This document shows positions 17,779-57,159 of a stretch of DNA of 64,000 nucleotides, one piece after another (position 1 is the first letter of the stretch; the number at the start of each line of letters is the position of its first letter). Source of the DNA: Closterium sp. NIES-65 (lineage: Eukaryota > Streptophyta > Zygnematophyceae > Desmidiales > Closteriaceae); the NCBI GenBank assembly GCA_948144175.1, contig CANXME010000803.1, positions 744,001-808,000 on the forward strand, given 5' to 3'. The notes below the pieces were generated by a model. It ran no database searches. It was not told the DNA's origin and worked only from the letters and a program-made list of their open reading frames with translations. Made by a program: the position numbers and the translations under genes.

Positions 17779-20666
17779 GGACATAGGCGGTGCATCCCCA
17801 AACGCGAAGAGAGCGAGCAGTGGGCGTTTTCCCGAGCCAGAGTGTGGTTGGAGTGGTATCGGGAAGGTGCGGATGGGGGTAAAGGTTGTAGAGGAGGGCG
17901 GCGTGGTAGAGAGCGTATCCCCAGAGAGAGTGTGGAGCGTTGGAGTGGCTGAGGAGGCACCGAGTGATCTGCACTAGAGTGTGGTTGCGGCTCTCAGCTA
18001 TGCCGTTCTGTTGAGGGCTGTCAGGGAGGGTGAAGTTTTGCTGGATGCCTTCGGAGGAGCAGAAGGCTTTAAGCTTGTCGTTGCAAAATTCACCCCCCCC
18101 ATCCGAGTGAAGGCGCTTGACCTTGCGGTCAAAGGTGGTCTGTGCCTGCTTGACCCACGCCATGATGACCTCTGGAGCCTCAGCCTTAGTGTGGAGGAGG
18201 TGAACAGAGACGTATCGTGAGTGGTCATCCACGATAACTAGGAAGTAGCGATATCCACCTCGTGCAAGAACAGGGGCAGGGCCCCAGACGTCCATGTGCA
18301 CTAGGTCCAGTGGTGCCGCTGCGATTGTGGGTGAGGCAGTGTGGGGCTGTTGGCGCAGTTTGCTCTTGGTGCAATCAAGGCACGTGGGAGCGGGTGAGTC
18401 AGATGGTGGAGGAAGTGTGGCTGGCAGGCCGAGAAGAAGTTTCTTGGAGGCCATGTCAGCAAGCGTGCGGAAGTTTGGGTGCCCTAACCGATGATGATAG
18501 AGGATGGTCGGGTTGGAGAGGCTGCGACATGTGCATGGTGTGATGGGAGCCTGTGCTTGGGTGGTTGAAACCTGTGGGAGAGGAACGCGTAGCGTGTAGA
18601 GGCCGCTGCTATTGAGGGTGAAGCGGGCCAAGACCTTGTTGGTGAGTGGGTCAATGATGTCGCAGTGGTCCTCATTCTCCGAGAAGATGGTGCGTAGCCC
18701 TGCTTTCTGAATTTCTGTTTGAGCCACTAGATTGTGGCGTAGTGAAGGCACGCACATGCCAGTGACGGTGCCGGAAGGGAAGGCTGGGCATGGGACTGTG
18801 GAGGTGCCCTTGGCTAGGGTGGTGAAGCTGGAGTCAGCTCCCAAGAGAGGGATAGGTGCTGGATAGGGTTTGAAGGAGAGTGTCTCCTTGAGCACAGTGT
18901 GAGTGGCCCCACTGTCGAGTGTGAACTCTATGTACTGTGGTGCCTGTGATGAGTCGATGTACTGGGAAGTGGCTTCATTAATCATGGCAGTGCCAGGAAA
19001 CAACAGGTTGATACGCACATCAACAGGAGCACTGTCACTAGCACTAGCCGAAGAGGGGTCCTGGACCTCAACGAGGTTGGCCTTACGAGCGCGCATCCAG
19101 TTTGGCGGCTTCTTGTCAACCCCGTGGATGGCATACCACTCGTCGTCTTTCTTCTTGAAGCACGTGGCAAGGGGGTGGTTAGTGCCACCACACACTTGTC
19201 CCTTGCGGTTGCCATACTTGACGACGTAGGTGCACGGAGGAAAGCGGTTGCGCTGGAAAGGCGCCGAGGCAAGGGCCGCTGCAACACTTGCTAGGGGCAT
19301 GGGAGCACGGATGGCGTGTGCCTTGGCCTGAGCAGTGGAGTCTTTCTCGGCAGAGAGGAGTGCGGTGGAGACCTTAGCAAAGGTGAGGTCTTCCGCTGAG
19401 AGCGTGAGGAGCATCTTCCTCGTGACTTCATATGCCGAGGAGAGACCAACAAGAAGGGCGGCTGCAGGGGCTTGTTCGGGGAAGACTATACCCAGCTCCT
19501 TGAGTTCACCATGAATGGTCTGCACCTTGGCGATGTAGTCAGCCATTCCTGAGCAGTCCTCAAGGCGGACTTGAAACATGCTGGGGATGAGAATCGCCAC
19601 TCCGACCGCCGTCTTGTTCATGAACCGATCCTGGAGATACTTCCAGATGGCGTTGGAGGTAGGGTAGTTGTGGAACGTGTTGACAAGTTCGGGAGGGGTG
19701 GAGGCAATGAAGACGCTGATGATGGCAGCATCGGCCTTCTCCCACTTCCGGTACTTCTCAACAGCTTCTTCGTACGTCATCACGTCAGCATCACTTGAAG
19801 ATTCGGTCGGTTCACGGGGAAGAGTGGGCTGTTTCCCCTTGCCACGGTTGAGGAGGACGTCCTTGAGGTCAAGGCCCTGCACGTCACGGCTCAGGAGGTG
19901 CTTGTCAACTCCGTAGCTCCACGCCTTGAAGTTGGAGCTAGAGCCATCGGCTTCAAGGCGGAGCGGGGTGATGGGGTTCGCCATGGTGGAAGACGAGAAA
20001 GCCATGGTGGAGACCCCTTAACTTCTCGCGCGGAGCGCCGCTCTTAAGTCACCAATAGGAACTTGAGGTTTGGGGTTTCCAAAGGAGATTTTGAAGAACC
20101 GGAGGTTTAGGGTTTACGAAGGAGAATTTGACTGAGACGCCAATTTAGTGTCAACTACCTACTAGTCCTATTCCCACACACCCCCCCACACACCACCCTC
20201 AGCTTCGCGGCTACGCTGCTGCTCGGCTTCGCGGCTACACGGCTGCTCGGCTTCGCGGCTACGCTGCTGCTCGGCTGCGTTGCTGCACCTGTTCAGCTGC
20301 GGGAAAGAGGGGGGATGGGGGTAGGAGTGCAGATGCGGGGCGACGGGCGGCAGCCCGAAGATGACGCTGCGGGGCGACGGGCGGCGGCCCGACGAGAAGC
20401 TGCAGGGCGACGGGCGGCAGCCCGTCGAGGAGAAGAAGTGACGAATTGATGAAAACGAGTGTTAGGTTAGAGCGCCGACGATGCGCTTACCAGAGAAGTT
20501 TCCGTCGATGGTGACGGGAAGGTTTGGCGGGAGAAATTCCGCCGATGAATGTCGCGAATCAACGGCGACGAAATTGGCGATGGCTTCCCCGAGGTTTGCG
20601 GGACAAGTATCCGCAGAGATGAGAGGATCACGATCCGCGTATGCGGTTGAGCTGCTCTGATTACCA
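17779..20666 (-). mobile_element. Array unit 1 (incomplete)
   Basis: The leader runs 20,666-20,006 and the frame from 20,005 covers gag, protease and most of integrase. Identity with the other units stops at 17,779 at a short shared GGACATAGG, and unrelated flanking sequence follows. It is incomplete, as expected if a deletion, recombination or assembly join trimmed the array. Confidence 0.9.
20006..20666 (-). promoter_or_regulatory. Untranslated leader of the array element (type copy)
   Basis: This 661-bp leader recurs in every unit. It has three copies of a roughly 27-bp GC-rich unit (GCTTCGCGGCTAC...GCTGCTCG, about 20,201-20,282). It also has three copies of GGGCGACGGGCGGCAGCCCG or close variants (about 20,338-20,425), each able to fold as a small CGGGC/GCCCG stem-loop. 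The position between primer site and gag is where retroelement RNA packaging signals usually lie. That role here is inference. Confidence 0.6.
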
Positions 20667-20954
20667 TGTCAGAACTTGAGCTTAGAATCGATACTATAGT
20701 AGTGAGCTCAAAGCTCTTTAAGTACATCCGGAATGAGCAAGGTAGGGATGAGGAGGGAATCAGGAGGCAATCCTAGGGAATCAAGGGTAATCCCAAGGCA
20801 ATCTCCAATTGGTGGGTTGGAGATTGCTTGGAGATTACATTTGGGTTTGGTTGGGATGTGGGTGTACACCCAACCAAACACAAAGTGCAAACTACACTAA
20901 ACTAGGATATAAAAGTACAAGTACAAAATGTGAGATTGGGGCCTAACACCAACA
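20667..20954 (-). repeat. Array LTR 1 (288 bp)
   Basis: Minus strand TGTTGG...CTGACA. It is bounded on one side by the polypurine tract (AGGGGGGG) and on the other by a primer-site-like TGG...TCAGAGC. It contains a strong hairpin at 20,793-20,831 (CAATCTCCAA pairing with TTGGAGATTG) and a perfect palindrome GGGTGTACACCC at 20,860-20,871. A TATAAAAG box lies at about 20,910, but on the plus strand, opposite to the element's coding direction. Confidence 0.9.
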
Positions 20955-23900
20955 CCCCCCCTGAGGCGTCAATCGAACGCATGGCGGAGAAGGAGGAGCG
21001 CAGAGCCCCATGGCGCCAAGGAGACGATGGTGGGGAACCTTCCCAAGGGGCTTGGTGAACAGGTCAGCCAGGTTGCAGTCAGATGCCACGTATTCCACCT
21101 TCAGCTGCTCTTGTTGCACAAGGTGACGAATGAAGAAGTGCCGAAGTTCAATATGCTTGGTGCGGGTGTGATACACAGGGTCTTGAGAGATGTGGATGGT
21201 ACTCTGGTTGTCACACCAGAGGGTGGGGGCTGACTGAGGGAAGCCAAGCTCCTGGAGTAGGAAAGTGAGCCAACGGGCCTCCTGAGCAGCCATGGTGCCT
21301 GCGTAGAGCTCCGCCTCACAGGAGGAGAGGGAGACTGCAGACGACCTGGTGGAGCGCCAACTGACAGTTCCGCTCCCGAGGGTGAAGCAGTACCCCTGAG
21401 AGGAGCGCCGGTCGGTCTGGTCATCAGCCCAGGAGGAGTCTGTGTAACCTTCCAGGCGAGGAGGGGAGAGCCCACCGAGTGTGAGAACGTGGGACTTTGT
21501 GCCCTTAAGATAGCGCAGCACCCGCTTTGCTGCCTTCCAATGAAGATTAGTGAAGCGACCCGGGGCCACGTAACGAGAGAGAACACTGACTGGGTAGGCC
21601 AAGTCCGGTCGAGTGCACATCATGGCGTACATGAGGGACCCAACAAGTTCCGGGTATGGCTCATAGCAGGCCTCTGGTGTGGGTACAGCAGGAGCTGTAA
21701 GGAGGTGTTGCAGCGGCAGCGGGGTGGCAACAGGTATGCACAGCTCCATCTCAAACCGCTTGAGCACATTGTCGATGTAGAACTCCTGGGAGAGTGAGAT
21801 GGTGCGAGCCTTGCGATCACGAGTGATCTCCATTCCTAGGTAGTGCTTGAGGTCACCAAGGTCTTTCATCTGGAGGGCCTTGCTCAGGGCTGCCTGGACT
21901 GAGGTCATTTGGGCCGAGTCCTTGGCAACGAGGATAAAATCATCCACGTAGACTAGGATGTAGAATGGCTCAGAATGACGACGGATGAAGAGAGTCGGGT
22001 CAGCAGTTGAGGGGTGGAAGTCCAGGGAGAGGAGGACTTCTTTCACCTTGTTGTGCCATTCGCGAGGGGCTTGTTTAAGGCCGTAGACGGGGCGATTCAG
22101 CTTCCAGACAGTGTTGGGAGGGAATTCTCCTGGGAAGCCTTCTGGTCTGTTCATGAACACTGTCTCCTTGAGACGTCCTTGTAGGAAAGCGGAGGAGGCA
22201 TCCATGGATTTGATCTCAAAGTCTTCTCGAGCTGCAACATCCATGAGCGTTCGAATGGTGGGAGGTTTGGATGTGGGGGAGAAGATTAGGTCGAAGTCGC
22301 GGTACCGCTGCTGGGTGAAGCCCTTGGCTACGTAACGCGCTTTGAACACCGGTGCCTCGTCTGGGAGCTGTTTTACACGGAACAACCACTTGCCCCCGAC
22401 GATGTTGACTCCTGGAGGTGGAGTCTCGTCATCGAAAGAGTGGTTGCGAGTGAATGCTGCAATCTCCGCGTCCATGGCAGCACGCCATTCGGCAGCATGA
22501 TGGCCTGAGAGAGCCTCTTGGACGGTGAGAGGGATAGGGATGGTCGGGTTCTCCGCGAGGTTGAGGGAGGGTGAGCCAGTGATATCGGGGAAGATGTGTG
22601 AGAGCTGAGGAATGACTGCATGGAGATCACACAGCTCCTCATGCCTGTCTTCTAGAAGGGTAGAGGGCACATCCCCCCCAGCAGGAGGAGGCGGTGTGAT
22701 CATTGTGTATCGAAGAACCATTGCGAGTGGAAGAGCAGCGCGATGGGAGCGGGTGCCATGAGCCACCGGTGAGGAGGGCGGGGCAGGCGGTGTCGGAGAG
22801 GGTGACTTAGGAGGCTTGGGTGGGGGAATGGGCCGCCGGCGGTACGTGATCAGCTCGGGCGACTGTGGGAGAGCGGGTTCCTCTGTGGTGGGGGGAACTG
22901 GGGGAGGAGGTGGGGCCGGAGGGTGGGACCGCCGATGGTAGGTGATAGGTGCGCTCGGAGGGGGCGGCGCAGCGGGAAGTGAGGAAGGTGAGGGGGGGGG
23001 CGGAGCAGCCGCCGAAGACACCGGTGAGGCCGGGTCAGAGACCTCAGAGGGAGATGGTGGGATGGCAGGAGAGGGAGGAGGTGAGGGGGCAGGAGCAGGC
23101 GGGAGGTCGGGAGGCGCGTCAAAGTCTGCCCACACGAGGGAGGGTGGATCAGGGAGAGGGTCCCGTCCCGAAGGGGAGTAGAATGGGCGGGTCTCATCAA
23201 AGACAACGTCGCGGCTCCTGACCAACTGTTGAGTGGAGGGATTGAGGAAGAGGTAGTCAGGTGAGTCGGCGTTGTGCCCAAGGTAGATGCACGTTTGAGT
23301 CTTGGGACCGAGCTTGCCACCGTTCTGGCGTCGAGCCGGAGGGTTGAGGAGGACATAGGCGGTGCATCCCCAAACGCGAAGAGAGCGAGCAGTGGGCGTT
23401 TTCCCGAGCCAGAGTGTGGTTGGAGTGGTATCGGGAAGGTGCGGATGGGGGTAAAGGTTGTAGAGGAGGGCGGCGTGGTAGAGAGCGTATCCCCAGAGAG
23501 AGTGTGGAGCGTTGGAGTGGCTGAGGAGGCACCGAGTGATCTGCACTAGAGTGTGGTTGCGGCTCTCAGCTATGCCGTTCTGTTGAGGGCTGTCAGGGAG
23601 GGTGAAGTTTTGCTGGATGCCTTCGGAGGAGCAGAAGGCTTTAAGCTTGTCGTTGCAAAATTCACCCCCCCCATCCGAGTGAAGGCGCTTGACCTTGCGG
23701 TCAAAGGTGGTCTGTGCCTGCTTGACCCACGCCATGATGACCTCTGGAGCCTCAGCCTTAGTGTGGAGGAGGTGAACAGAGACGTATCGTGAGTGGTCAT
23801 CCACGATAACTAGGAAGTAGCGATATCCACCTCGTGCAAGAACAGGGGCAGGGCCCCAGACGTCCATGTGCACTAGGTCCAGTGGTGCCGCTGCGATTGT

Positions 23901-25577
23901 GGGTGAGGCAGTGTGGGGCTGTTGGCGCAGTTTGCTCTTGGTGCAATCAAGGCACGTGGGAGCGGGTGAGTCAGATGGTGGAGGAAGTGTGGCTGGCAGG
24001 CCGAGAAGAAGTTTCTTGGAGGCCATGTCAGCAAGCGTGCGGAAGTTTGGGTGCCCTAACCGATGATGATAGAGGATGGTCGGGTTGGAGAGGCTGCGAC
24101 ATGTGCATGGTGTGATGGGAGCCTGTGCTTGGGTGGTTGAAACCTGTGGGAGAGGAACGCGTAGCGTGTAGAGGCCGCTGCTATTGAGGGTGAAGCGGGC
24201 CAAGACCTTGTTGGTGAGTGGGTCAATGATGTCGCAGTGGTCCTCATTCTCCGAGAAGATGGTGCGTAGCCCTGCTTTCTGAATTTCTGTTTGAGCCACT
24301 AGATTGTGGCGTAGTGAAGGCACGCACATGCCAGTGACGGTGCCGGAAGGGAAGGCTGGGCATGGGACTGTGGAGGTGCCCTTGGCTAGGGTGGTGAAGC
24401 TGGAGTCAGCTCCCAAGAGAGGGATAGGTGCTGGATAGGGTTTGAAGGAGAGTGTCTCCTTGAGCACAGTGTGAGTGGCCCCACTGTCGAGTGTGAACTC
24501 TATGTACTGTGGTGCCTGTGATGAGTCGATGTACTGGGAAGTGGCTTCATTAATCATGGCAGTGCCAGGAAACAACAGGTTGATACGCACATCAACAGGA
24601 GCACTGTCACTAGCACTAGCCGAAGAGGGGTCCTGGACCTCAACGAGGTTGGCCTTACGAGCGCGCATCCAGTTTGGCGGCTTCTTGTCAACCCCGTGGA
24701 TGGCATACCACTCGTCGTCTTTCTTCTTGAAGCACGTGGCAAGGGGGTGGTTAGTGCCACCACACACTTGTCCCTTGCGGTTGCCATACTTGACGACGTA
24801 GGTGCACGGAGGAAAGCGGTTGCGCTGGAAAGGCGCCGAGGCAAGGGCCGCTGCAACACTTGCTAGGGGCATGGGAGCACGGATGGCGTGTGCCTTGGCC
24901 TGAGCAGTGGAGTCTTTCTCGGCAGAGAGGAGTGCGGTGGAGACCTTAGCAAAGGTGAGGTCTTCCGCTGAGAGCGTGAGGAGCATCTTCCTCGTGACTT
25001 CATATGCCGAGGAGAGACCAACAAGAAGGGCGGCTGCAGGGGCTTGTTCGGGGAAGACTATACCCAGCTCCTTGAGTTCACCATGAATGGTCTGCACCTT
25101 GGCGATGTAGTCAGCCATTCCTGAGCAGTCCTCAAGGCGGACTTGAAACATGCTGGGGATGAGAATCGCCACTCCGACCGCCGTCTTGTTCATGAACCGA
25201 TCCTGGAGATACTTCCAGATGGCGTTGGAGGTAGGGTAGTTGTGGAACGTGTTGACAAGTTCGGGAGGGGTGGAGGCAATGAAGACGCTGATGATGGCAG
25301 CATCGGCCTTCTCCCACTTCCGGTACTTCTCAACAGCTTCTTCGTACGTCATCACGTCAGCATCACTTGAAGATTCGGTCGGTTCACGGGGAAGAGTGGG
25401 CTGTTTCCCCTTGCCACGGTTGAGGAGGACGTCCTTGAGGTCAAGGCCCTGCACGTCACGGCTCAGGAGGTGCTTGTCAACTCCGTAGCTCCACGCCTTG
25501 AAGTTGGAGCTAGAGCCATCGGCTTCAAGGCGGAGCGGGGTGATGGGGTTCGCCATGGTGGAAGACGAGAAAGCCAT
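20943..25577 (-). CDS. Array unit 2: intact copia polyprotein (1,544 aa)
   Basis: One frame from the ATG at 25577 encodes the whole Ty1/copia polyprotein. In order: gag (about 1-330) with a zinc-knuckle-like CX13CX4HX4C segment around 260-290; aspartic protease DSGATH with Asp364; GAG-pre-integrase HHRLGHPN; integrase Asp572 (HMDVWGP), Asp635 (HSDGGGEF) and Glu671 (GIAESRN), again D,D35E; a proline-rich linker (about 780-960); reverse transcriptase with FLQGRLKE and YVDD at 1210-1213; and RNase H (YTDSSWADD, SSCEAELYA, WCDNQSTIHI) to about 1510. The stop codon and last three residues (Cys-Trp-Cys) fall inside the adjoining LTR. A second ATG nine codons in (MANPITP) is an alternative start. 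Length and order are normal for a complete copia element. No internal break is seen, so it looks whole. Particles would form in the cytoplasm. Confidence 0.95.
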   Translation of the reverse strand: MAFSSSTMANPITPLRLEADGSSSNFKAWSYGVDKHLLSRDVQGLDLKDVLLNRGKGKQPTLPREPTESSSDADVMTYEEAVEKYRKWEKADAAIISVFIASTPPELVNTFHNYPTSNAIWKYLQDRFMNKTAVGVAILIPSMFQVRLEDCSGMADYIAKVQTIHGELKELGIVFPEQAPAAALLVGLSSAYEVTRKMLLTLSAEDLTFAKVSTALLSAEKDSTAQAKAHAIRAPMPLASVAAALASAPFQRNRFPPCTYVVKYGNRKGQVCGGTNHPLATCFKKKDDEWYAIHGVDKKPPNWMRARKANLVEVQDPSSASASDSAPVDVRINLLFPGTAMINEATSQYIDSSQAPQYIEFTLDSGATHTVLKETLSFKPYPAPIPLLGADSSFTTLAKGTSTVPCPAFPSGTVTGMCVPSLRHNLVAQTEIQKAGLRTIFSENEDHCDIIDPLTNKVLARFTLNSSGLYTLRVPLPQVSTTQAQAPITPCTCRSLSNPTILYHHRLGHPNFRTLADMASKKLLLGLPATLPPPSDSPAPTCLDCTKSKLRQQPHTASPTIAAAPLDLVHMDVWGPAPVLARGGYRYFLVIVDDHSRYVSVHLLHTKAEAPEVIMAWVKQAQTTFDRKVKRLHSDGGGEFCNDKLKAFCSSEGIQQNFTLPDSPQQNGIAESRNHTLVQITRCLLSHSNAPHSLWGYALYHAALLYNLYPHPHLPDTTPTTLWLGKTPTARSLRVWGCTAYVLLNPPARRQNGGKLGPKTQTCIYLGHNADSPDYLFLNPSTQQLVRSRDVVFDETRPFYSPSGRDPLPDPPSLVWADFDAPPDLPPAPAPSPPPSPAIPPSPSEVSDPASPVSSAAAPPPPSPSSLPAAPPPPSAPITYHRRSHPPAPPPPPVPPTTEEPALPQSPELITYRRRPIPPPKPPKSPSPTPPAPPSSPVAHGTRSHRAALPLAMVLRYTMITPPPPAGGDVPSTLLEDRHEELCDLHAVIPQLSHIFPDITGSPSLNLAENPTIPIPLTVQEALSGHHAAEWRAAMDAEIAAFTRNHSFDDETPPPGVNIVGGKWLFRVKQLPDEAPVFKARYVAKGFTQQRYRDFDLIFSPTSKPPTIRTLMDVAAREDFEIKSMDASSAFLQGRLKETVFMNRPEGFPGEFPPNTVWKLNRPVYGLKQAPREWHNKVKEVLLSLDFHPSTADPTLFIRRHSEPFYILVYVDDFILVAKDSAQMTSVQAALSKALQMKDLGDLKHYLGMEITRDRKARTISLSQEFYIDNVLKRFEMELCIPVATPLPLQHLLTAPAVPTPEACYEPYPELVGSLMYAMMCTRPDLAYPVSVLSRYVAPGRFTNLHWKAAKRVLRYLKGTKSHVLTLGGLSPPRLEGYTDSSWADDQTDRRSSQGYCFTLGSGTVSWRSTRSSAVSLSSCEAELYAGTMAAQEARWLTFLLQELGFPQSAPTLWCDNQSTIHISQDPVYHTRTKHIELRHFFIRHLVQQEQLKVEYVASDCNLADLFTKPLGKVPHHRLLGAMGLCAPPSPPCVRLTPQGGCWC

Positions 25578-26238
25578 GGTGGAGACCCCTTAACTTCTCG
25601 CGCGGAGCGCCGCTCTTAAGTCACCAATAGGAACTTGAGGTTTGGGGTTTCCAAAGGAGATTTTGAAGAACCGGAGGTTTAGGGTTTACGAAGGAGAATT
25701 TGACTGAGACGCCAATTTAGTGTCAACTACCTACTAGTCCTATTCCCACACACCCCCCCACACACCACCCTCAGCTTCGCGGCTACGCTGCTGCTCGGCT
25801 TCGCGGCTACACGGCTGCTCGGCTTCGCGGCTACGCTGCTGCTCGGCTGCGTTGCTGCACCTGTTCAGCTGCGGGAAAGAGGGGGGATGGGGGTAGGAGT
25901 GCAGATGCGGGGCGACGGGCGGCAGCCCGAAGATGACGCTGCGGGGCGACGGGCGGCGGCCCGACGAGAAGCTGCAGGGCGACGGGCGGCAGCCCGTCGA
26001 GGAGAAGAAGTGACGAATTGATGAAAACGAGTGTTAGGTTAGAGCGCCGACGATGCGCTTACCAGAGAAGTTTCCGTCGATGGTGACGGGAAGGTTTGGC
26101 GGGAGAAATTCCGCCGATGAATGTCGCGAATCAACGGCGACGAAATTGGCGATGGCTTCCCCGAGGTTTGCGGGACAAGTATCCGCAGAGATGAGAGGAT
26201 CACGATCCGCGTATGCGGTTGAGCTGCTCTGATTACCA

Positions 26239-26526
26239 TGTCAGAACTTGAGCTTAGAATCGATACTATAGTAGTGAGCTCAAAGCTCTTTAAGTACATC
26301 CGGAATGAGCAAGGTAGGGATGAGGAGGGAATCAGGAGGCAATCCTAGGGAATCAAGGGTAATCCCAAGGCAATCTCCAATTGGTGGGTTGGAGATTGCT
26401 TGGAGATTACATTTGGGTTTGGTTGGGATGTGGGTGTACACCCAACCAAACACAAAGTGCAAACTACACTAAACTAGGATATAAAAGTACAAGTACAAAA
26501 TGTGAGATTGGGGCCTAACACCAACA
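26239..26526 (-). repeat. Array LTR 2
   Basis: Shared between the leader of unit 2 and the 3' end of unit 3. It is 288 bp and identical to LTR 1 wherever I compared them. Confidence 0.9.
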
Positions 26527-31150: not shown

Positions 31151-31811
31151 GGTGGAGACCCCTTAACTTCTCGCGCGGAGCGCCGCTCTTAAGTCACCAA
31201 TAGGAACTTGAGGTTTGGGGTTTCCAAAGGAGATTTTGAAGAACCGGAGGTTTAGGGTTTACGAAGGAGAATTTGACTGAGACGCCAATTTAGTGTCAAC
31301 TACCTACTAGTCCTATTCCCACACACCCCCCCACACACCACCCTCAGCTTCGCGGCTACGCTGCTGCTCGGCTTCGCGGCTACACGGCTGCTCGGCTTCG
31401 CGGCTACGCTGCTGCTCGGCTGCGTTGCTGCACCTGTTCAGCTGCGGGAAAGAGGGGGGATGGGGGTAGGAGTGCAGATGCGGGGCGACGGGCGGCAGCC
31501 CGAAGATGACGCTGCGGGGCGACGGGCGGCGGCCCGACGAGAAGCTGCAGGGCGACGGGCGGCAGCCCGTCGAGGAGAAGAAGTGACGAATTGATGAAAA
31601 CGAGTGTTAGGTTAGAGCGCCGACGATGCGCTTACCAGAGAAGTTTCCGTCGATGGTGACGGGAAGGTTTGGCGGGAGAAATTCCGCCGATGAATGTCGC
31701 GAATCAACGGCGACGAAATTGGCGATGGCTTCCCCGAGGTTTGCGGGACAAGTATCCGCAGAGATGAGAGGATCACGATCCGCGTATGCGGTTGAGCTGC
31801 TCTGATTACCA

Positions 31812-32099
31812 TGTCAGAACTTGAGCTTAGAATCGATACTATAGTAGTGAGCTCAAAGCTCTTTAAGTACATCCGGAATGAGCAAGGTAGGGATGAGGAG
31901 GGAATCAGGAGGCAATCCTAGGGAATCAAGGGTAATCCCAAGGCAATCTCCAATTGGTGGGTTGGAGATTGCTTGGAGATTACATTTGGGTTTGGTTGGG
32001 ATGTGGGTGTACACCCAACCAAACACAAAGTGCAAACTACACTAAACTAGGATATAAAAGTACAAGTACAAAATGTGAGATTGGGGCCTAACACCAACA
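31812..32099 (-). repeat. Array LTR 3
   Basis: Shared between the leader of unit 3 and the 3' end of unit 4, with the same ends and length as LTR 1. Confidence 0.9.
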
Positions 32100-37383: not shown

Positions 37384-37671
37384 TGTCAGAACTTGAGCTT
37401 AGAATCGATACTATAGTAGTGAGCTCAAAGCTCTTTAAGTACATCCGGAATGAGCAAGGTAGGGATGAGGAGGGAATCAGGAGGCAATCCTAGGGAATCA
37501 AGGGTAATCCCAAGGCAATCTCCAATTGGTGGGTTGGAGATTGCTTGGAGATTACATTTGGGTTTGGTTGGGATGTGGGTGTACACCCAACCAAACACAA
37601 AGTGCAAACTACACTAAACTAGGATATAAAAGTACAAGTACAAAATGTGAGATTGGGGCCTAACACCAACA
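37384..37671 (-). repeat. Array LTR 4
   Basis: Shared between units 4 and 5, 288 bp, same ends. Confidence 0.9.
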
Positions 37672-42294: not shown

Positions 42295-42955
42295 GGTGGA
42301 GACCCCTTAACTTCTCGCGCGGAGCGCCGCTCTTAAGTCACCAATAGGAACTTGAGGTTTGGGGTTTCCAAAGGAGATTTTGAAGAACCGGAGGTTTAGG
42401 GTTTACGAAGGAGAATTTGACTGAGACGCCAATTTAGTGTCAACTACCTACTAGTCCTATTCCCACACACCCCCCCACACACCACCCTCAGCTTCGCGGC
42501 TACGCTGCTGCTCGGCTTCGCGGCTACACGGCTGCTCGGCTTCGCGGCTACGCTGCTGCTCGGCTGCGTTGCTGCACCTGTTCAGCTGCGGGAAAGAGGG
42601 GGGATGGGGGTAGGAGTGCAGATGCGGGGCGACGGGCGGCAGCCCGAAGATGACGCTGCGGGGCGACGGGCGGCGGCCCGACGAGAAGCTGCAGGGCGAC
42701 GGGCGGCAGCCCGTCGAGGAGAAGAAGTGACGAATTGATGAAAACGAGTGTTAGGTTAGAGCGCCGACGATGCGCTTACCAGAGAAGTTTCCGTCGATGG
42801 TGACGGGAAGGTTTGGCGGGAGAAATTCCGCCGATGAATGTCGCGAATCAACGGCGACGAAATTGGCGATGGCTTCCCCGAGGTTTGCGGGACAAGTATC
42901 CGCAGAGATGAGAGGATCACGATCCGCGTATGCGGTTGAGCTGCTCTGATTACCA

Positions 42956-43243
42956 TGTCAGAACTTGAGCTTAGAATCGATACTATAGTAGTGAGCTCAA
43001 AGCTCTTTAAGTACATCCGGAATGAGCAAGGTAGGGATGAGGAGGGAATCAGGAGGCAATCCTAGGGAATCAAGGGTAATCCCAAGGCAATCTCCAATTG
43101 GTGGGTTGGAGATTGCTTGGAGATTACATTTGGGTTTGGTTGGGATGTGGGTGTACACCCAACCAAACACAAAGTGCAAACTACACTAAACTAGGATATA
43201 AAAGTACAAGTACAAAATGTGAGATTGGGGCCTAACACCAACA
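42956..43243 (-). repeat. Array LTR 5
   Basis: Shared between units 5 and 6, 288 bp, same ends. Confidence 0.9.
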
Positions 43244-46200: not shown

Positions 46201-47866
46201 TGTGGGGCTGTTGGCGCAGTTTGCTCTTGGTGCAATCAAGGCACGTGGGAGCGGGTGAGTCAGATGGTGGAGGAAGTGTGGCTGGCAGGCCGAGAAGAAG
46301 TTTCTTGGAGGCCATGTCAGCAAGCGTGCGGAAGTTTGGGTGCCCTAACCGATGATGATAGAGGATGGTCGGGTTGGAGAGGCTGCGACATGTGCATGGT
46401 GTGATGGGAGCCTGTGCTTGGGTGGTTGAAACCTGTGGGAGAGGAACGCGTAGCGTGTAGAGGCCGCTGCTATTGAGGGTGAAGCGGGCCAAGACCTTGT
46501 TGGTGAGTGGGTCAATGATGTCGCAGTGGTCCTCATTCTCCGAGAAGATGGTGCGTAGCCCTGCTTTCTGAATTTCTGTTTGAGCCACTAGATTGTGGCG
46601 TAGTGAAGGCACGCACATGCCAGTGACGGTGCCGGAAGGGAAGGCTGGGCATGGGACTGTGGAGGTGCCCTTGGCTAGGGTGGTGAAGCTGGAGTCAGCT
46701 CCCAAGAGAGGGATAGGTGCTGGATAGGGTTTGAAGGAGAGTGTCTCCTTGAGCACAGTGTGAGTGGCCCCACTGTCGAGTGTGAACTCTATGTACTGTG
46801 GTGCCTGTGATGAGTCGATGTACTGGGAAGTGGCTTCATTAATCATGGCAGTGCCAGGAAACAACAGGTTGATACGCACATCAACAGGAGCACTGTCACT
46901 AGCACTAGCCGAAGAGGGGTCCTGGACCTCAACGAGGTTGGCCTTACGAGCGCGCATCCAGTTTGGCGGCTTCTTGTCAACCCCGTGGATGGCATACCAC
47001 TCGTCGTCTTTCTTCTTGAAGCACGTGGCAAGGGGGTGGTTAGTGCCACCACACACTTGTCCCTTGCGGTTGCCATACTTGACGACGTAGGTGCACGGAG
47101 GAAAGCGGTTGCGCTGGAAAGGCGCCGAGGCAAGGGCCGCTGCAACACTTGCTAGGGGCATGGGAGCACGGATGGCGTGTGCCTTGGCCTGAGCAGTGGA
47201 GTCTTTCTCGGCAGAGAGGAGTGCGGTGGAGACCTTAGCAAAGGTGAGGTCTTCCGCTGAGAGCGTGAGGAGCATCTTCCTCGTGACTTCATATGCCGAG
47301 GAGAGACCAACAAGAAGGGCGGCTGCAGGGGCTTGTTCGGGGAAGACTATACCCAGCTCCTTGAGTTCACCATGAATGGTCTGCACCTTGGCGATGTAGT
47401 CAGCCATTCCTGAGCAGTCCTCAAGGCGGACTTGAAACATGCTGGGGATGAGAATCGCCACTCCGACCGCCGTCTTGTTCATGAACCGATCCTGGAGATA
47501 CTTCCAGATGGCGTTGGAGGTAGGGTAGTTGTGGAACGTGTTGACAAGTTCGGGAGGGGTGGAGGCAATGAAGACGCTGATGATGGCAGCATCGGCCTTC
47601 TCCCACTTCCGGTACTTCTCAACAGCTTCTTCGTACGTCATCACGTCAGCATCACTTGAAGATTCGGTCGGTTCACGGGGAAGAGTGGGCTGTTTCCCCT
47701 TGCCACGGTTGAGGAGGACGTCCTTGAGGTCAAGGCCCTGCACGTCACGGCTCAGGAGGTGCTTGTCAACTCCGTAGCTCCACGCCTTGAAGTTGGAGCT
47801 AGAGCCATCGGCTTCAAGGCGGAGCGGGGTGATGGGGTTCGCCATGGTGGAAGACGAGAAAGCCAT
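43232..47866 (-). CDS. Array unit 6: intact copia polyprotein
   Basis: Protein identical to unit 2, leader 47,867-48,527. It looks whole. Confidence 0.95.
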   Translation of the reverse strand: MAFSSSTMANPITPLRLEADGSSSNFKAWSYGVDKHLLSRDVQGLDLKDVLLNRGKGKQPTLPREPTESSSDADVMTYEEAVEKYRKWEKADAAIISVFIASTPPELVNTFHNYPTSNAIWKYLQDRFMNKTAVGVAILIPSMFQVRLEDCSGMADYIAKVQTIHGELKELGIVFPEQAPAAALLVGLSSAYEVTRKMLLTLSAEDLTFAKVSTALLSAEKDSTAQAKAHAIRAPMPLASVAAALASAPFQRNRFPPCTYVVKYGNRKGQVCGGTNHPLATCFKKKDDEWYAIHGVDKKPPNWMRARKANLVEVQDPSSASASDSAPVDVRINLLFPGTAMINEATSQYIDSSQAPQYIEFTLDSGATHTVLKETLSFKPYPAPIPLLGADSSFTTLAKGTSTVPCPAFPSGTVTGMCVPSLRHNLVAQTEIQKAGLRTIFSENEDHCDIIDPLTNKVLARFTLNSSGLYTLRVPLPQVSTTQAQAPITPCTCRSLSNPTILYHHRLGHPNFRTLADMASKKLLLGLPATLPPPSDSPAPTCLDCTKSKLRQQPHTASPTIAAAPLDLVHMDVWGPAPVLARGGYRYFLVIVDDHSRYVSVHLLHTKAEAPEVIMAWVKQAQTTFDRKVKRLHSDGGGEFCNDKLKAFCSSEGIQQNFTLPDSPQQNGIAESRNHTLVQITRCLLSHSNAPHSLWGYALYHAALLYNLYPHPHLPDTTPTTLWLGKTPTARSLRVWGCTAYVLLNPPARRQNGGKLGPKTQTCIYLGHNADSPDYLFLNPSTQQLVRSRDVVFDETRPFYSPSGRDPLPDPPSLVWADFDAPPDLPPAPAPSPPPSPAIPPSPSEVSDPASPVSSAAAPPPPSPSSLPAAPPPPSAPITYHRRSHPPAPPPPPVPPTTEEPALPQSPELITYRRRPIPPPKPPKSPSPTPPAPPSSPVAHGTRSHRAALPLAMVLRYTMITPPPPAGGDVPSTLLEDRHEELCDLHAVIPQLSHIFPDITGSPSLNLAENPTIPIPLTVQEALSGHHAAEWRAAMDAEIAAFTRNHSFDDETPPPGVNIVGGKWLFRVKQLPDEAPVFKARYVAKGFTQQRYRDFDLIFSPTSKPPTIRTLMDVAAREDFEIKSMDASSAFLQGRLKETVFMNRPEGFPGEFPPNTVWKLNRPVYGLKQAPREWHNKVKEVLLSLDFHPSTADPTLFIRRHSEPFYILVYVDDFILVAKDSAQMTSVQAALSKALQMKDLGDLKHYLGMEITRDRKARTISLSQEFYIDNVLKRFEMELCIPVATPLPLQHLLTAPAVPTPEACYEPYPELVGSLMYAMMCTRPDLAYPVSVLSRYVAPGRFTNLHWKAAKRVLRYLKGTKSHVLTLGGLSPPRLEGYTDSSWADDQTDRRSSQGYCFTLGSGTVSWRSTRSSAVSLSSCEAELYAGTMAAQEARWLTFLLQELGFPQSAPTLWCDNQSTIHISQDPVYHTRTKHIELRHFFIRHLVQQEQLKVEYVASDCNLADLFTKPLGKVPHHRLLGAMGLCAPPSPPCVRLTPQGGCWC

Positions 47867-48527
47867 GGTGGAGACCCCTTAACTTCTCGCGCGGAGCGCC
47901 GCTCTTAAGTCACCAATAGGAACTTGAGGTTTGGGGTTTCCAAAGGAGATTTTGAAGAACCGGAGGTTTAGGGTTTACGAAGGAGAATTTGACTGAGACG
48001 CCAATTTAGTGTCAACTACCTACTAGTCCTATTCCCACACACCCCCCCACACACCACCCTCAGCTTCGCGGCTACGCTGCTGCTCGGCTTCGCGGCTACA
48101 CGGCTGCTCGGCTTCGCGGCTACGCTGCTGCTCGGCTGCGTTGCTGCACCTGTTCAGCTGCGGGAAAGAGGGGGGATGGGGGTAGGAGTGCAGATGCGGG
48201 GCGACGGGCGGCAGCCCGAAGATGACGCTGCGGGGCGACGGGCGGCGGCCCGACGAGAAGCTGCAGGGCGACGGGCGGCAGCCCGTCGAGGAGAAGAAGT
48301 GACGAATTGATGAAAACGAGTGTTAGGTTAGAGCGCCGACGATGCGCTTACCAGAGAAGTTTCCGTCGATGGTGACGGGAAGGTTTGGCGGGAGAAATTC
48401 CGCCGATGAATGTCGCGAATCAACGGCGACGAAATTGGCGATGGCTTCCCCGAGGTTTGCGGGACAAGTATCCGCAGAGATGAGAGGATCACGATCCGCG
48501 TATGCGGTTGAGCTGCTCTGATTACCA

Positions 48528-48815
48528 TGTCAGAACTTGAGCTTAGAATCGATACTATAGTAGTGAGCTCAAAGCTCTTTAAGTACATCCGGAATGAGCA
48601 AGGTAGGGATGAGGAGGGAATCAGGAGGCAATCCTAGGGAATCAAGGGTAATCCCAAGGCAATCTCCAATTGGTGGGTTGGAGATTGCTTGGAGATTACA
48701 TTTGGGTTTGGTTGGGATGTGGGTGTACACCCAACCAAACACAAAGTGCAAACTACACTAAACTAGGATATAAAAGTACAAGTACAAAATGTGAGATTGG
48801 GGCCTAACACCAACA
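48528..48815 (-). repeat. Array LTR 6
   Basis: Shared between units 6 and 7, 288 bp, same ends. Confidence 0.9.
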
Positions 48816-51800
48816 CCCCCCCTGAGGCGTCAATCGAACGCATGGCGGAGAAGGAGGAGCGCAGAGCCCCATGGCGCCAAGGAGACGATGGTGGGGAACC
48901 TTCCCAAGGGGCTTGGTGAACAGGTCAGCCAGGTTGCAGTCAGATGCCACGTATTCCACCTTCAGCTGCTCTTGTTGCACAAGGTGACGAATGAAGAAGT
49001 GCCGAAGTTCAATATGCTTGGTGCGGGTGTGATACACAGGGTCTTGAGAGATGTGGATGGTACTCTGGTTGTCACACCAGAGGGTGGGGGCTGACTGAGG
49101 GAAGCCAAGCTCCTGGAGTAGGAAAGTGAGCCAACGGGCCTCCTGAGCAGCCATGGTGCCTGCGTAGAGCTCCGCCTCACAGGAGGAGAGGGAGACTGCA
49201 GACGACCTGGTGGAGCGCCAACTGACAGTTCCGCTCCCGAGGGTGAAGCAGTACCCCTGAGAGGAGCGCCGGTCGGTCTGGTCATCAGCCCAGGAGGAGT
49301 CTGTGTAACCTTCCAGGCGAGGAGGGGAGAGCCCACCGAGTGTGAGAACGTGGGACTTTGTGCCCTTAAGATAGCGCAGCACCCGCTTTGCTGCCTTCCA
49401 ATGAAGATTAGTGAAGCGACCCGGGGCCACGTAACGAGAGAGAACACTGACTGGGTAGGCCAAGTCCGGTCGAGTGCACATCATGGCGTACATGAGGGAC
49501 CCAACAAGTTCCGGGTATGGCTCATAGCAGGCCTCTGGTGTGGGTACAGCAGGAGCTGTAAGGAGGTGTTGCAGCGGCAGCGGGGTGGCAACAGGTATGC
49601 ACAGCTCCATCTCAAACCGCTTGAGCACATTGTCGATGTAGAACTCCTGGGAGAGTGAGATGGTGCGAGCCTTGCGATCACGAGTGATCTCCATTCCTAG
49701 GTAGTGCTTGAGGTCACCAAGGTCTTTCATCTGGAGGGCCTTGCTCAGGGCTGCCTGGACTGAGGTCATTTGGGCCGAGTCCTTGGCAACGAGGATAAAA
49801 TCATCCACGTAGACTAGGATGTAGAATGGCTCAGAATGACGACGGATGAAGAGAGTCGGGTCAGCAGTTGAGGGGTGGAAGTCCAGGGAGAGGAGGACTT
49901 CTTTCACCTTGTTGTGCCATTCGCGAGGGGCTTGTTTAAGGCCGTAGACGGGGCGATTCAGCTTCCAGACAGTGTTGGGAGGGAATTCTCCTGGGAAGCC
50001 TTCTGGTCTGTTCATGAACACTGTCTCCTTGAGACGTCCTTGTAGGAAAGCGGAGGAGGCATCCATGGATTTGATCTCAAAGTCTTCTCGAGCTGCAACA
50101 TCCATGAGCGTTCGAATGGTGGGAGGTTTGGATGTGGGGGAGAAGATTAGGTCGAAGTCGCGGTACCGCTGCTGGGTGAAGCCCTTGGCTACGTAACGCG
50201 CTTTGAACACCGGTGCCTCGTCTGGGAGCTGTTTTACACGGAACAACCACTTGCCCCCGACGATGTTGACTCCTGGAGGTGGAGTCTCGTCATCGAAAGA
50301 GTGGTTGCGAGTGAATGCTGCAATCTCCGCGTCCATGGCAGCACGCCATTCGGCAGCATGATGGCCTGAGAGAGCCTCTTGGACGGTGAGAGGGATAGGG
50401 ATGGTCGGGTTCTCCGCGAGGTTGAGGGAGGGTGAGCCAGTGATATCGGGGAAGATGTGTGAGAGCTGAGGAATGACTGCATGGAGATCACACAGCTCCT
50501 CATGCCTGTCTTCTAGAAGGGTAGAGGGCACATCCCCCCCAGCAGGAGGAGGCGGTGTGATCATTGTGTATCGAAGAACCATTGCGAGTGGAAGAGCAGC
50601 GCGATGGGAGCGGGTGCCATGAGCCACCGGTGAGGAGGGCGGGGCAGGCGGTGTCGGAGAGGGTGACTTAGGAGGCTTGGGTGGGGGAATGGGCCGCCGG
50701 CGGTACGTGATCAGCTCGGGCGACTGTGGGAGAGCGGGTTCCTCTGTGGTGGGGGGAACTGGGGGAGGAGGTGGGGCCGGAGGGTGGGACCGCCGATGGT
50801 AGGTGATAGGTGCGCTCGGAGGGGGCGGCGCAGCGGGAAGTGAGGAAGGTGAGGGGGGGGGCGGAGCAGCCGCCGAAGACACCGGTGAGGCCGGGTCAGA
50901 GACCTCAGAGGGAGATGGTGGGATGGCAGGAGAGGGAGGAGGTGAGGGGGCAGGAGCAGGCGGGAGGTCGGGAGGCGCGTCAAAGTCTGCCCACACGAGG
51001 GAGGGTGGATCAGGGAGAGGGTCCCGTCCCGAAGGGGAGTAGAATGGGCGGGTCTCATCAAAGACAACGTCGCGGCTCCTGACCAACTGTTGAGTGGAGG
51101 GATTGAGGAAGAGGTAGTCAGGTGAGTCGGCGTTGTGCCCAAGGTAGATGCACGTTTGAGTCTTGGGACCGAGCTTGCCACCGTTCTGGCGTCGAGCCGG
51201 AGGGTTGAGGAGGACATAGGCGGTGCATCCCCAAACGCGAAGAGAGCGAGCAGTGGGCGTTTTCCCGAGCCAGAGTGTGGTTGGAGTGGTATCGGGAAGG
51301 TGCGGATGGGGGTAAAGGTTGTAGAGGAGGGCGGCGTGGTAGAGAGCGTATCCCCAGAGAGAGTGTGGAGCGTTGGAGTGGCTGAGGAGGCACCGAGTGA
51401 TCTGCACTAGAGTGTGGTTGCGGCTCTCAGCTATGCCGTTCTGTTGAGGGCTGTCAGGGAGGGTGAAGTTTTGCTGGATGCCTTCGGAGGAGCAGAAGGC
51501 TTTAAGCTTGTCGTTGCAAAATTCACCCCCCCCATCCGAGTGAAGGCGCTTGACCTTGCGGTCAAAGGTGGTCTGTGCCTGCTTGACCCACGCCATGATG
51601 ACCTCTGGAGCCTCAGCCTTAGTGTGGAGGAGGTGAACAGAGACGTATCGTGAGTGGTCATCCACGATAACTAGGAAGTAGCGATATCCACCTCGTGCAA
51701 GAACAGGGGCAGGGCCCCAGACGTCCATGTGCACTAGGTCCAGTGGTGCCGCTGCGATTGTGGGTGAGGCAGTGTGGGGCTGTTGGCGCAGTTTGCTCTT

Positions 51801-53438
51801 GGTGCAATCAAGGCACGTGGGAGCGGGTGAGTCAGATGGTGGAGGAAGTGTGGCTGGCAGGCCGAGAAGAAGTTTCTTGGAGGCCATGTCAGCAAGCGTG
51901 CGGAAGTTTGGGTGCCCTAACCGATGATGATAGAGGATGGTCGGGTTGGAGAGGCTGCGACATGTGCATGGTGTGATGGGAGCCTGTGCTTGGGTGGTTG
52001 AAACCTGTGGGAGAGGAACGCGTAGCGTGTAGAGGCCGCTGCTATTGAGGGTGAAGCGGGCCAAGACCTTGTTGGTGAGTGGGTCAATGATGTCGCAGTG
52101 GTCCTCATTCTCCGAGAAGATGGTGCGTAGCCCTGCTTTCTGAATTTCTGTTTGAGCCACTAGATTGTGGCGTAGTGAAGGCACGCACATGCCAGTGACG
52201 GTGCCGGAAGGGAAGGCTGGGCATGGGACTGTGGAGGTGCCCTTGGCTAGGGTGGTGAAGCTGGAGTCAGCTCCCAAGAGAGGGATAGGTGCTGGATAGG
52301 GTTTGAAGGAGAGTGTCTCCTTGAGCACAGTGTGAGTGGCCCCACTGTCGAGTGTGAACTCTATGTACTGTGGTGCCTGTGATGAGTCGATGTACTGGGA
52401 AGTGGCTTCATTAATCATGGCAGTGCCAGGAAACAACAGGTTGATACGCACATCAACAGGAGCACTGTCACTAGCACTAGCCGAAGAGGGGTCCTGGACC
52501 TCAACGAGGTTGGCCTTACGAGCGCGCATCCAGTTTGGCGGCTTCTTGTCAACCCCGTGGATGGCATACCACTCGTCGTCTTTCTTCTTGAAGCACGTGG
52601 CAAGGGGGTGGTTAGTGCCACCACACACTTGTCCCTTGCGGTTGCCATACTTGACGACGTAGGTGCACGGAGGAAAGCGGTTGCGCTGGAAAGGCGCCGA
52701 GGCAAGGGCCGCTGCAACACTTGCTAGGGGCATGGGAGCACGGATGGCGTGTGCCTTGGCCTGAGCAGTGGAGTCTTTCTCGGCAGAGAGGAGTGCGGTG
52801 GAGACCTTAGCAAAGGTGAGGTCTTCCGCTGAGAGCGTGAGGAGCATCTTCCTCGTGACTTCATATGCCGAGGAGAGACCAACAAGAAGGGCGGCTGCAG
52901 GGGCTTGTTCGGGGAAGACTATACCCAGCTCCTTGAGTTCACCATGAATGGTCTGCACCTTGGCGATGTAGTCAGCCATTCCTGAGCAGTCCTCAAGGCG
53001 GACTTGAAACATGCTGGGGATGAGAATCGCCACTCCGACCGCCGTCTTGTTCATGAACCGATCCTGGAGATACTTCCAGATGGCGTTGGAGGTAGGGTAG
53101 TTGTGGAACGTGTTGACAAGTTCGGGAGGGGTGGAGGCAATGAAGACGCTGATGATGGCAGCATCGGCCTTCTCCCACTTCCGGTACTTCTCAACAGCTT
53201 CTTCGTACGTCATCACGTCAGCATCACTTGAAGATTCGGTCGGTTCACGGGGAAGAGTGGGCTGTTTCCCCTTGCCACGGTTGAGGAGGACGTCCTTGAG
53301 GTCAAGGCCCTGCACGTCACGGCTCAGGAGGTGCTTGTCAACTCCGTAGCTCCACGCCTTGAAGTTGGAGCTAGAGCCATCGGCTTCAAGGCGGAGCGGG
53401 GTGATGGGGTTCGCCATGGTGGAAGACGAGAAAGCCAT
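48804..53438 (-). CDS. Array unit 7 (outermost): intact copia polyprotein
   Basis: Protein identical to unit 2. Its leader (53,439-54,099) is separated from the outermost LTR by a 196-bp insertion that no other unit has, so this unit is the true 5' end of the array on the minus strand. Confidence 0.95.
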   Translation of the reverse strand: MAFSSSTMANPITPLRLEADGSSSNFKAWSYGVDKHLLSRDVQGLDLKDVLLNRGKGKQPTLPREPTESSSDADVMTYEEAVEKYRKWEKADAAIISVFIASTPPELVNTFHNYPTSNAIWKYLQDRFMNKTAVGVAILIPSMFQVRLEDCSGMADYIAKVQTIHGELKELGIVFPEQAPAAALLVGLSSAYEVTRKMLLTLSAEDLTFAKVSTALLSAEKDSTAQAKAHAIRAPMPLASVAAALASAPFQRNRFPPCTYVVKYGNRKGQVCGGTNHPLATCFKKKDDEWYAIHGVDKKPPNWMRARKANLVEVQDPSSASASDSAPVDVRINLLFPGTAMINEATSQYIDSSQAPQYIEFTLDSGATHTVLKETLSFKPYPAPIPLLGADSSFTTLAKGTSTVPCPAFPSGTVTGMCVPSLRHNLVAQTEIQKAGLRTIFSENEDHCDIIDPLTNKVLARFTLNSSGLYTLRVPLPQVSTTQAQAPITPCTCRSLSNPTILYHHRLGHPNFRTLADMASKKLLLGLPATLPPPSDSPAPTCLDCTKSKLRQQPHTASPTIAAAPLDLVHMDVWGPAPVLARGGYRYFLVIVDDHSRYVSVHLLHTKAEAPEVIMAWVKQAQTTFDRKVKRLHSDGGGEFCNDKLKAFCSSEGIQQNFTLPDSPQQNGIAESRNHTLVQITRCLLSHSNAPHSLWGYALYHAALLYNLYPHPHLPDTTPTTLWLGKTPTARSLRVWGCTAYVLLNPPARRQNGGKLGPKTQTCIYLGHNADSPDYLFLNPSTQQLVRSRDVVFDETRPFYSPSGRDPLPDPPSLVWADFDAPPDLPPAPAPSPPPSPAIPPSPSEVSDPASPVSSAAAPPPPSPSSLPAAPPPPSAPITYHRRSHPPAPPPPPVPPTTEEPALPQSPELITYRRRPIPPPKPPKSPSPTPPAPPSSPVAHGTRSHRAALPLAMVLRYTMITPPPPAGGDVPSTLLEDRHEELCDLHAVIPQLSHIFPDITGSPSLNLAENPTIPIPLTVQEALSGHHAAEWRAAMDAEIAAFTRNHSFDDETPPPGVNIVGGKWLFRVKQLPDEAPVFKARYVAKGFTQQRYRDFDLIFSPTSKPPTIRTLMDVAAREDFEIKSMDASSAFLQGRLKETVFMNRPEGFPGEFPPNTVWKLNRPVYGLKQAPREWHNKVKEVLLSLDFHPSTADPTLFIRRHSEPFYILVYVDDFILVAKDSAQMTSVQAALSKALQMKDLGDLKHYLGMEITRDRKARTISLSQEFYIDNVLKRFEMELCIPVATPLPLQHLLTAPAVPTPEACYEPYPELVGSLMYAMMCTRPDLAYPVSVLSRYVAPGRFTNLHWKAAKRVLRYLKGTKSHVLTLGGLSPPRLEGYTDSSWADDQTDRRSSQGYCFTLGSGTVSWRSTRSSAVSLSSCEAELYAGTMAAQEARWLTFLLQELGFPQSAPTLWCDNQSTIHISQDPVYHTRTKHIELRHFFIRHLVQQEQLKVEYVASDCNLADLFTKPLGKVPHHRLLGAMGLCAPPSPPCVRLTPQGGCWC

Positions 53439-54107
53439 GGTGGAGACCCCTTAACTTCTCGCGCGGAGCGCCGCTCTTAAGTCACCAATAGGAACTTGAG
53501 GTTTGGGGTTTCCAAAGGAGATTTTGAAGAACCGGAGGTTTAGGGTTTACGAAGGAGAATTTGACTGAGACGCCAATTTAGTGTCAACTACCTACTAGTC
53601 CTATTCCCACACACCCCCCCACACACCACCCTCAGCTTCGCGGCTACGCTGCTGCTCGGCTTCGCGGCTACACGGCTGCTCGGCTTCGCGGCTACGCTGC
53701 TGCTCGGCTGCGTTGCTGCACCTGTTCAGCTGCGGGAAAGAGGGGGGATGGGGGTAGGAGTGCAGATGCGGGGCGACGGGCGGCAGCCCGAAGATGACGC
53801 TGCGGGGCGACGGGCGGCGGCCCGACGAGAAGCTGCAGGGCGACGGGCGGCAGCCCGTCGAGGAGAAGAAGTGACGAATTGATGAAAACGAGTGTTAGGT
53901 TAGAGCGCCGACGATGCGCTTACCAGAGAAGTTTCCGTCGATGGTGACGGGAAGGTTTGGCGGGAGAAATTCCGCCGATGAATGTCGCGAATCAACGGCG
54001 ACGAAATTGGCGATGGCTTCCCCGAGGTTTGCGGGACAAGTATCCGCAGAGATGAGAGGATCACGATCCGCGTATGCGGTTGAGCTGCTCTGATTACCAT
54101 GTCAGAA

Positions 54108-54303
54108 TCCCAACCACTAGACCATTGGGATAAAAGGGCTTGTTAAGTAGCGGGTCAGTGCGCCCATAACCCCCCAGGCCAACATGCCTGTAACCTTTCC
54201 CTAGGATCAATCGGGGATCTCCAGTGGACCTCTGACACCCCCCCGCACTGGGATGCCCGAAGTGCACACACTGGGATTCGAACCCGAGACCGCTCTGATA
54301 CCA
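54108..54303 (-). mobile_element. 196-bp insertion with tRNA-type promoter motifs at the LTR/leader junction of unit 7
   Basis: Present only in the outermost unit. It is flanked by direct copies of about 20 bp of the LTR-end/primer-site sequence. On the minus strand it has a B-box match GGTTCGAATCC (54,284-54,274) and an A-box-like TGGTCTAGTGG (54,124-54,114), but in the order B then A, the reverse of a tRNA. Reading the unit as a circle, or two copies in tandem, would put A before B. This suggests a circularly permuted tRNA-derived SINE-like unit. It is not a functional tRNA gene. Confidence 0.55.
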
Positions 54304-54591
54304 TGTCAGAACTTGAGCTTAGAATCGATACTATAGTAGTGAGCTCAAAGCTCTTTAAGTACATCCGGAATGAGCAAGGTAGGGATGAGGAGGGAATCAG
54401 GAGGCAATCCTAGGGAATCAAGGGTAATCCCAAGGCAATCTCCAATTGGTGGGTTGGAGATTGCTTGGAGATTACATTTGGGTTTGGTTGGGATGTGGGT
54501 GTACACCCAACCAAACACAAAGTGCAAACTACACTAAACTAGGATATAAAAGTACAAGTACAAAATGTGAGATTGGGGCCTAACACCAACA
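54304..54591 (-). repeat. Array LTR 7 (outermost 5' LTR)
   Basis: 288 bp with the same ends as the others. On the minus strand it starts at 54,591, immediately after G3 sequence, and ends before a canonical TGGTATCAGAGC. This is the only LTR-host junction in the array. Confidence 0.9.
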
Positions 54592-57135: not shown

Positions 57136-57159
57136 GCTAAGACTCTGCTGCATTAAAAC

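Follow-up and report, generated by a model that had tools for sequence, protein, structure and literature searches.

A copia array with shared LTRs and one TRIM unit at the junction of a tandem segmental duplication in Closterium sp. NIES-65

Introduction

In yeast, Ty1 elements form multimeric tandem arrays, and Ty1 cDNA is captured at breaks by end-joining; we know of no TRIM partner and no duplicated segment in these cases. In plants, LTR-retrotransposon tandems with shared LTRs are known from rice, Arabidopsis, almond, and cotton. According to the available text of the study that describes them (PMC11899658), a perfect target-site duplication (TSD) of 5 bp accompanies 10 of 28 tandem insertions, and both the insertion of ready-made tandems and later recombination are discussed, with the formation of the shared-LTR tandems left open. 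For the Closterium species complex, copy-number variation was reported to explain genome size (PMC10407611, accessible part).

Here, we describe a 64,000-nucleotide stretch of the Closterium sp. NIES-65 assembly (the window; contig C802, positions 744001-808000; the assembly comprises 874 Mb in 2,400 contigs), in which a head-to-tail copia array with shared LTRs had been predicted. Such tandems are already known in plants; what appears to be new here is the mixed make-up of the array and its position at a duplication junction. Among the titles and abstracts listed in our searches of the open-licence literature, none described a mixed TRIM/copia tandem or a concatemer of LTR elements that bridges a segmental duplication.

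Results

Structure and coding capacity of the array

The predicted array is present in the assembly, with internal regions and single LTRs alternating on the minus strand from 17779 to 54591. It contains seven 288-bp LTRs together with six full internals and a further one that is cut, so that both its borders and its count of six full regions and one partial one agree with the original prediction. The unit number and the contiguity of the array are those given by the assembly. The features of the window are as follows (positions are those of the window).

1-17776, unstranded: segment copy 1, right part, extending left beyond the window (comparison with C802:832901-850700)
17777-17778, unstranded: left junction; copy 1 ends at 17776, filler AG, copia pol from 17779 (comparison with C802:850700 and C1789)
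17779-20666, minus: partial copia internal, 5' part only, cut inside pol, no 3' LTR (self-match, frames, Pfam domains)
20667-20954, minus: LTR 1, 288 bp (identical LTR copies)
20955-26238, minus: full copia internal; ORF 20943-25577, 1,544 aa (frame, domains, motifs)
26239-26526, minus: LTR 2 (identical LTR copies)
26527-31811, minus: full copia internal with extra G; split frames 26515-28929 and 28379-31150 (self-match, frames)
31812-32099, minus: LTR 3 (identical LTR copies)
32100-37383, minus: full copia internal; ORF 32088-36722 (frame, motifs)
37384-37671, minus: LTR 4 (identical LTR copies)
37672-42955, minus: full copia internal; ORF 37660-42294 (frame, motifs)
42956-43243, minus: LTR 5 (identical LTR copies)
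43244-48527, minus: full copia internal; ORF 43232-47866 (frame, motifs)
48528-48815, minus: LTR 6 (identical LTR copies)
48816-54099, minus: full copia internal; ORF 48804-53438; its 5' neighbour is the TRIM unit, not an LTR directly (frame, motifs)
54100-54237, minus: TRIM LTR, 138 bp, ends TGTCAGA..TCTGACA (termini, genome copies)
54238-54303, minus: TRIM internal, 66 bp, from PBS TGGTATCAGAGC to a G7 polypurine tract (motifs, genome copies)
54304-54591, minus: LTR 7, the 5' LTR of the array; its exact end abuts the flank (identical LTR copies)
54592-64000, unstranded: segment copy 2, left part, extending right beyond the window; equals C802:713651-723059 (sequence comparison)
54592-57111, minus: part of a gypsy-like element at the start of copy 2; 5' LTR 56582-57111, gag/protease frame 54580-56565 (domains, comparison)

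The array matches itself exactly at an offset of 5,572 bp over 17779-54107, with a single break at an extra G in a run near 28,570. The exact 5,572-bp step that had been claimed therefore holds for most units, but it is 5,573 bp at the extra G and 5,776 bp at the last LTR-to-LTR step, owing to 204 extra bp. All seven 293-nt copies containing the LTR are 100% identical, units w2, w3, and w7 showed no substitutions in the alignment, and w4-w6 are identical by the exact self-match. The near-perfect identity proposed earlier thus amounts to 0 substitutions between units, whose sole difference is homopolymer length. At its left end, the array is without an LTR, pol being interrupted at 17779; of the features that define tandem LTR-retrotransposons in the available text of PMC11899658, alternating internals and shared LTRs are found here, and an LTR at both ends is not.

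A frame of 1,544 codons is open in five of the six full units, as had been predicted, and in the sixth the extra G splits it into 804 and 923 codons. The frame break of this unit lies at the G run 28565-28573; as two units at C379 have similarly split frames, this run may be especially prone to slippage or polishing errors.

The translated array contains the Pfam domains Retrotran_gag_2, gag_pre-integrs, rve, SH3_retrovirus, and RVT_2 in copia order, and a pattern search of its frame found DSGA, HHCC, D-D-E, YVDD, and RNase H motifs. This is the Ty1/copia order of GAG, protease, integrase, RT, and RNase H with catalytic motifs. Structurally, too, the family corresponds to Ty1/copia, with LTRs running from TG to CA, a PBS, and a polypurine tract in the window, and 5-bp TSDs in single copies (GTATT at C117, ATTCC at C128). 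Among the best 120 of 5,481 relatives of the RT region, 119 bear a name, and every one of these is from Closterium. The window units are separated from single copies by 16 (C1737), 17 (C1977), 23 (C117), and 30 (C128) substitutions.

The copia PBS occurs in two forms, TGGTATCAGAGC and TGGTAATCAGAGC, the second of which is one base longer than the usual plant initiator-tRNA form. An assembly search located the extra-A PBS at 42 places (41 exact, one with one mismatch), seven in the array and 35 elsewhere. The extra A, carried by every PBS of the array, was considered as the mark of a private template and rejected as such, given the 35 places outside the array.

Stretches of another copia family, ~1.2 kb long and ~80-81% alike, lie on both sides of the array (2174-3358, 9384-10569, and 62812-64000). 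An apparent 9.6-kb local tandem duplication at C117:780561-799114 (L036-L038) includes a partial copia copy and its flank.

A TRIM unit in the 5'-most copy

The 204 extra bp are one TRIM unit (66-bp internal plus 138-bp LTR). It lies exactly where copia LTR 7 would otherwise meet the PBS, and is present in only one of the six full units, the 5'-most. This identification follows from the termini, the polypurine tract, the genome copies, and their TSDs. The family has short LTRs, a short non-coding internal, a PBS, a polypurine tract, and, in its complete copies L016 and L024, TSDs of 5 bp (ATAAA and GAGAC). When the 191-bp core was subjected to 20,000 dinucleotide shuffles, TGTCAGA arose somewhere in 251 of them and behind a 7-purine tract in 4; the test was post hoc, made on a motif already seen.

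At the 40 genome places scored of 1,944 candidates, the adjacent second LTR is full in 28, partial in seven, and absent in five, with the window TRIM among the last. Ten places, including the window, were read, and TSDs were assessed at L016, L017, L018, L021, L023, and L024. Copies L018 and L021 have a common flank and TSD (GGAGG) and a shortened second LTR; no TSD was seen on reading the flanks of L023. Locus L017 (C2144:2314428, from 1501) is a TRIM heterodimer of the order LTR-A/int-A/LTR-B/int-B/LTR-B, which shares one LTR and has the TSD CGTGC. The flank of L017 recurs at C154 (L020), and this locus is apparently present twice.

The junction between TRIM internal and copia LTR was found in exact form at two places in the 874-Mb assembly, the window and C1977; a third match, at C111, has three mismatches in its LTR part. 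The copia at C1977 is a single element, flanked on both sides by the TSD CCGAC; its LTR/PBS point, too, is occupied by a TRIM, but by a different one (77% alike). Copia/TRIM chimeras can therefore form before integration.

A box A-like motif in the TRIM LTR end and a box B-like motif in the internal (54087-54311, minus strand) are set at tRNA-like spacing across the LTR/PBS point. ARAGORN gave an antisense call on the TRIM in circular order; when introns were permitted and the threshold was lowered, it gave a weak sense call and an antisense call. It gave nothing on the linear order. Rfam at gathering thresholds yielded no match. An alternative candidate for the 204 bp, a tRNA-type SINE in circular permutation with A and B boxes, was dropped because the termini, the polypurine tract, and the genome copies are those of a TRIM.

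The array lies at the junction of a tandem duplication

The flanks, originally regarded as unique, turned out to be opposite ends of a segment that is duplicated in tandem on this contig. The left part of the gypsy-like element comes first, followed by segment copy 1 (~48.1 kb), the array, segment copy 2 (~52.1 kb), and further sequence. Over the ~24.6 kb compared, the segment copies differ by five substitutions in all: two in the 9,409 bp of the right flank against C802:713651-723059, and three in ~15.2 kb of the left flank against C802:832901-850700, where small repeat indels and a 2,632-bp insertion add to the difference. The insertion (C802:842338-844969, L047-L048) lies in copy 2 and is without counterpart in copy 1. 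PKD-channel-like exons are found in copy 1 (15219-16595, minus strand).

At the right junction, the array ends with the exact LTR end, and the adjoining flank begins with TAAGT inside the gypsy-like gag-protease frame. Because the left end of the array is lost, a 5-bp TSD around it would have its one surviving side here. The left junction reads ..CCACA, two filler bases AG, and mid-pol. A search with the left flank (40 scored of 436 candidates) returned copies 1 and 2, C1789 at 99%, and shorter places at 92% (C802:912033 and C1789:1559798). Since C1789 passes uninterrupted through the left breakpoint and on into the sequence that also follows copy 2 (3,369 columns, with 27 mismatches and 6 gaps), the junction at 17776 is the derived state.

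No copia was found at the outer edges of the duplication: the outer gypsy-like copy is whole and empty, and the copy of the left flank runs past 850700 copia-free. The remainder of the gypsy-like element is absent to the left of the array; only 111 bp of its LTR matched the window. The gypsy-like assignment is based on a zinc knuckle and a protease, and the six protein relatives of the flank are all from Closterium. A perfect 30-bp repeat (6.3 copies, 100% matches) occupies 57286-57474.

Other arrays in the assembly

A 901-bp internal-LTR-internal query gave 52 matches from the 40 scored of 1,042 candidates, a set in which more diverged junctions may be unscored. At least 16 matches are full-length (six at C802, five at C379, and five at C708), 24 are half matches, and 12 are short. 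C379 and C708 contain a second array of the copia family, more diverged than that of the window. Their matching units differ by indels only, with 0 substitutions; the two contigs hold either a single locus that was assembled in duplicate or a recent copy of it. As the C379 units are 9-30 substitutions apart and 44-65 from the other compared copies, this array, too, grew from one unit and has diverged more; the nearest relative is the neighbour for four of its five units. None of the five keeps the whole frame, the longest open stretch being 785-927 codons, and homopolymer errors and decay are indistinguishable there. Two C379 units have similarly split frames, of 927 plus 811 or 855 codons. 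In the C708 array, the copia match ends at the left inside the internal region (C708:1216549).

A gypsy-like tandem was also found at C995:456285-478005 (L033-L035). It has four LTRs and three internals at a step of 7,064 bp, with 10,086 bp perfectly identical at that offset.

Discussion

Origin of the array

The reading that we favour, with a probability of about 0.4, is that a cDNA-level copia/TRIM concatemer was end-joined at the break that made the ~48-kb tandem duplication, and was perhaps resized later. It would explain the chimera, the restriction of the TRIM to the 5' end, the identical units, the one exact and one cut end, and the copia-free outer edges. The structures and junctions are seen in the assembly, and from them we infer an enzymatic route and the sequence of its steps. 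Plus-strand strong-stop DNA, terminating with the LTR end and the PBS common to copia and TRIM, would jump onto co-packaged TRIM cDNA. The TRIM-bearing product would then prime on a copia one-LTR template, which would be copied several times, by rolling copying or repeated transfer, to yield LTR-TRIM-(internal-LTR)n; a TRIM in the 5'-most unit only would fit synthesis starting at the 5' LTR. Against this, random placement would put the TRIM 5'-most with a chance of ~1 in 7. Finally, the linear concatemer would be end-joined between the right segment end (17776) of one chromatid and the left end (54592) of another, giving segment-array-segment, and later unequal exchange or conversion may alter the unit number and keep the units alike. 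A concatemer, as cDNA or circle, is a predicted intermediate of this route. Among the origins offered by the original prediction, a concatemer or circle stays within the favoured class; we disfavour plain crossing-over between the LTRs of a single chimeric element, because the TRIM would have been copied into every unit.

Several observations also suit the main alternative, which is only somewhat less probable: a copia integrated ordinarily into the gypsy-like element, the array grew in place by unequal exchange between LTRs, and a later break removed its 3' end and fused what was left with the end of the segment, the duplication being a by-product. The exact LTR end at the right is equally expected from integrase, the likeness of neighbours in the C379 array would suit exchange in place, and a gypsy-like tandem exists as well. 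The array is, moreover, no older than the duplication, its units being, if anything, more alike than the two segment copies: at the segment rate, 3.7 single-unit substitutions were expected and 0 seen (P 0.025, a value that rests on five substitutions). This hints at an array that postdates the duplication or was homogenised, although read correction and polishing could have levelled the units as well. Growth in place, however, requires a separate origin for the 5' unit alone bearing the TRIM. It also requires a partner chromosome without the array, because the outer gypsy-like copy is empty; the break could have occurred, for example, in a zygote with such a partner. The duplication could also have been made by homologous exchange, given an older copia copy at either end of the segment. 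This would be in keeping with a dispersed and young family, but both outer edges are copia-free and C1789 has no copia at the left breakpoint. We regard such an exchange as highly improbable and largely refuted in this assembly.

An assembly artefact, with near-identical copies of the region misjoined via copia repeats or the unit number wrong, seems rather unlikely to us. The longest run without a distinguishing base is ~25.5 kb, so that reads longer than this are required to cross it, units differ only in a homopolymer, and near-identical loci do occur in the genome, as at C379 and C708. However, the window contains no N, the segment copies are told apart by their substitutions and the 2,632-bp insertion, and the second array has distinguishable units. 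The NIES-65 assembly was, according to the accessible part of PMC10407611, built from PacBio reads with an N50 of 30 kb by Canu, Arrow, linked-read scaffolding, and Pilon.

Significance and comparison with known systems

The TRIM at the LTR/PBS point, found once in the array and once in a single TSD-flanked element, marks a step before integration. If a recent segmental duplication is indeed bridged by the array, element DNA would be physically tied to a change in gene copy number, and the position at the junction hints at a possible role of such element chains in large duplications. A more general proposition is that cDNA concatemers of LTR retrotransposons arise by strand transfer between different elements with a common PBS and LTR end, and by repeated copying of a one-LTR template, and that their joining into chromosome breaks generates large tandem segmental duplications with the concatemer as the bridge; we consider it less likely than not.

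As in the tandems described in the available text of PMC11899658, LTRs and internals alternate here, with one LTR per junction and high identity. Unlike the two loci detailed there, with two internals each, the present array has six full internals, a TRIM inside, and one cut end; it comes from a green alga and sits where two copies of a duplicated segment meet. Cassandra TRIM arrays are likewise shared-LTR tandems, in which PCR showed as many as 13 LTRs and 12 internals, but are made of a short non-coding TRIM only, whereas coding copia units are joined here to one TRIM unit (PMC7215508, accessible part). With TRIMs in general, including the tRNA-like Helenus, the 204-bp unit shares short LTRs, a PBS, a polypurine tract, 5-bp TSDs, and a presumed dependence on autonomous elements; in Helenus and TRIMp3 the tRNA-like sequence lies inside the LTR, whereas the box A- and B-like motifs here straddle LTR and internal (PMC10886601, as far as its available text goes). 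Large tandem duplications, of 55-56 kb, are also found in Arabidopsis epigenetic mutants with a high load of element circles and chimeric circles. In the accessible part of that study (PMC10462705), these duplications are reported not to be associated with circles, whereas the junction in Closterium is filled with element DNA.
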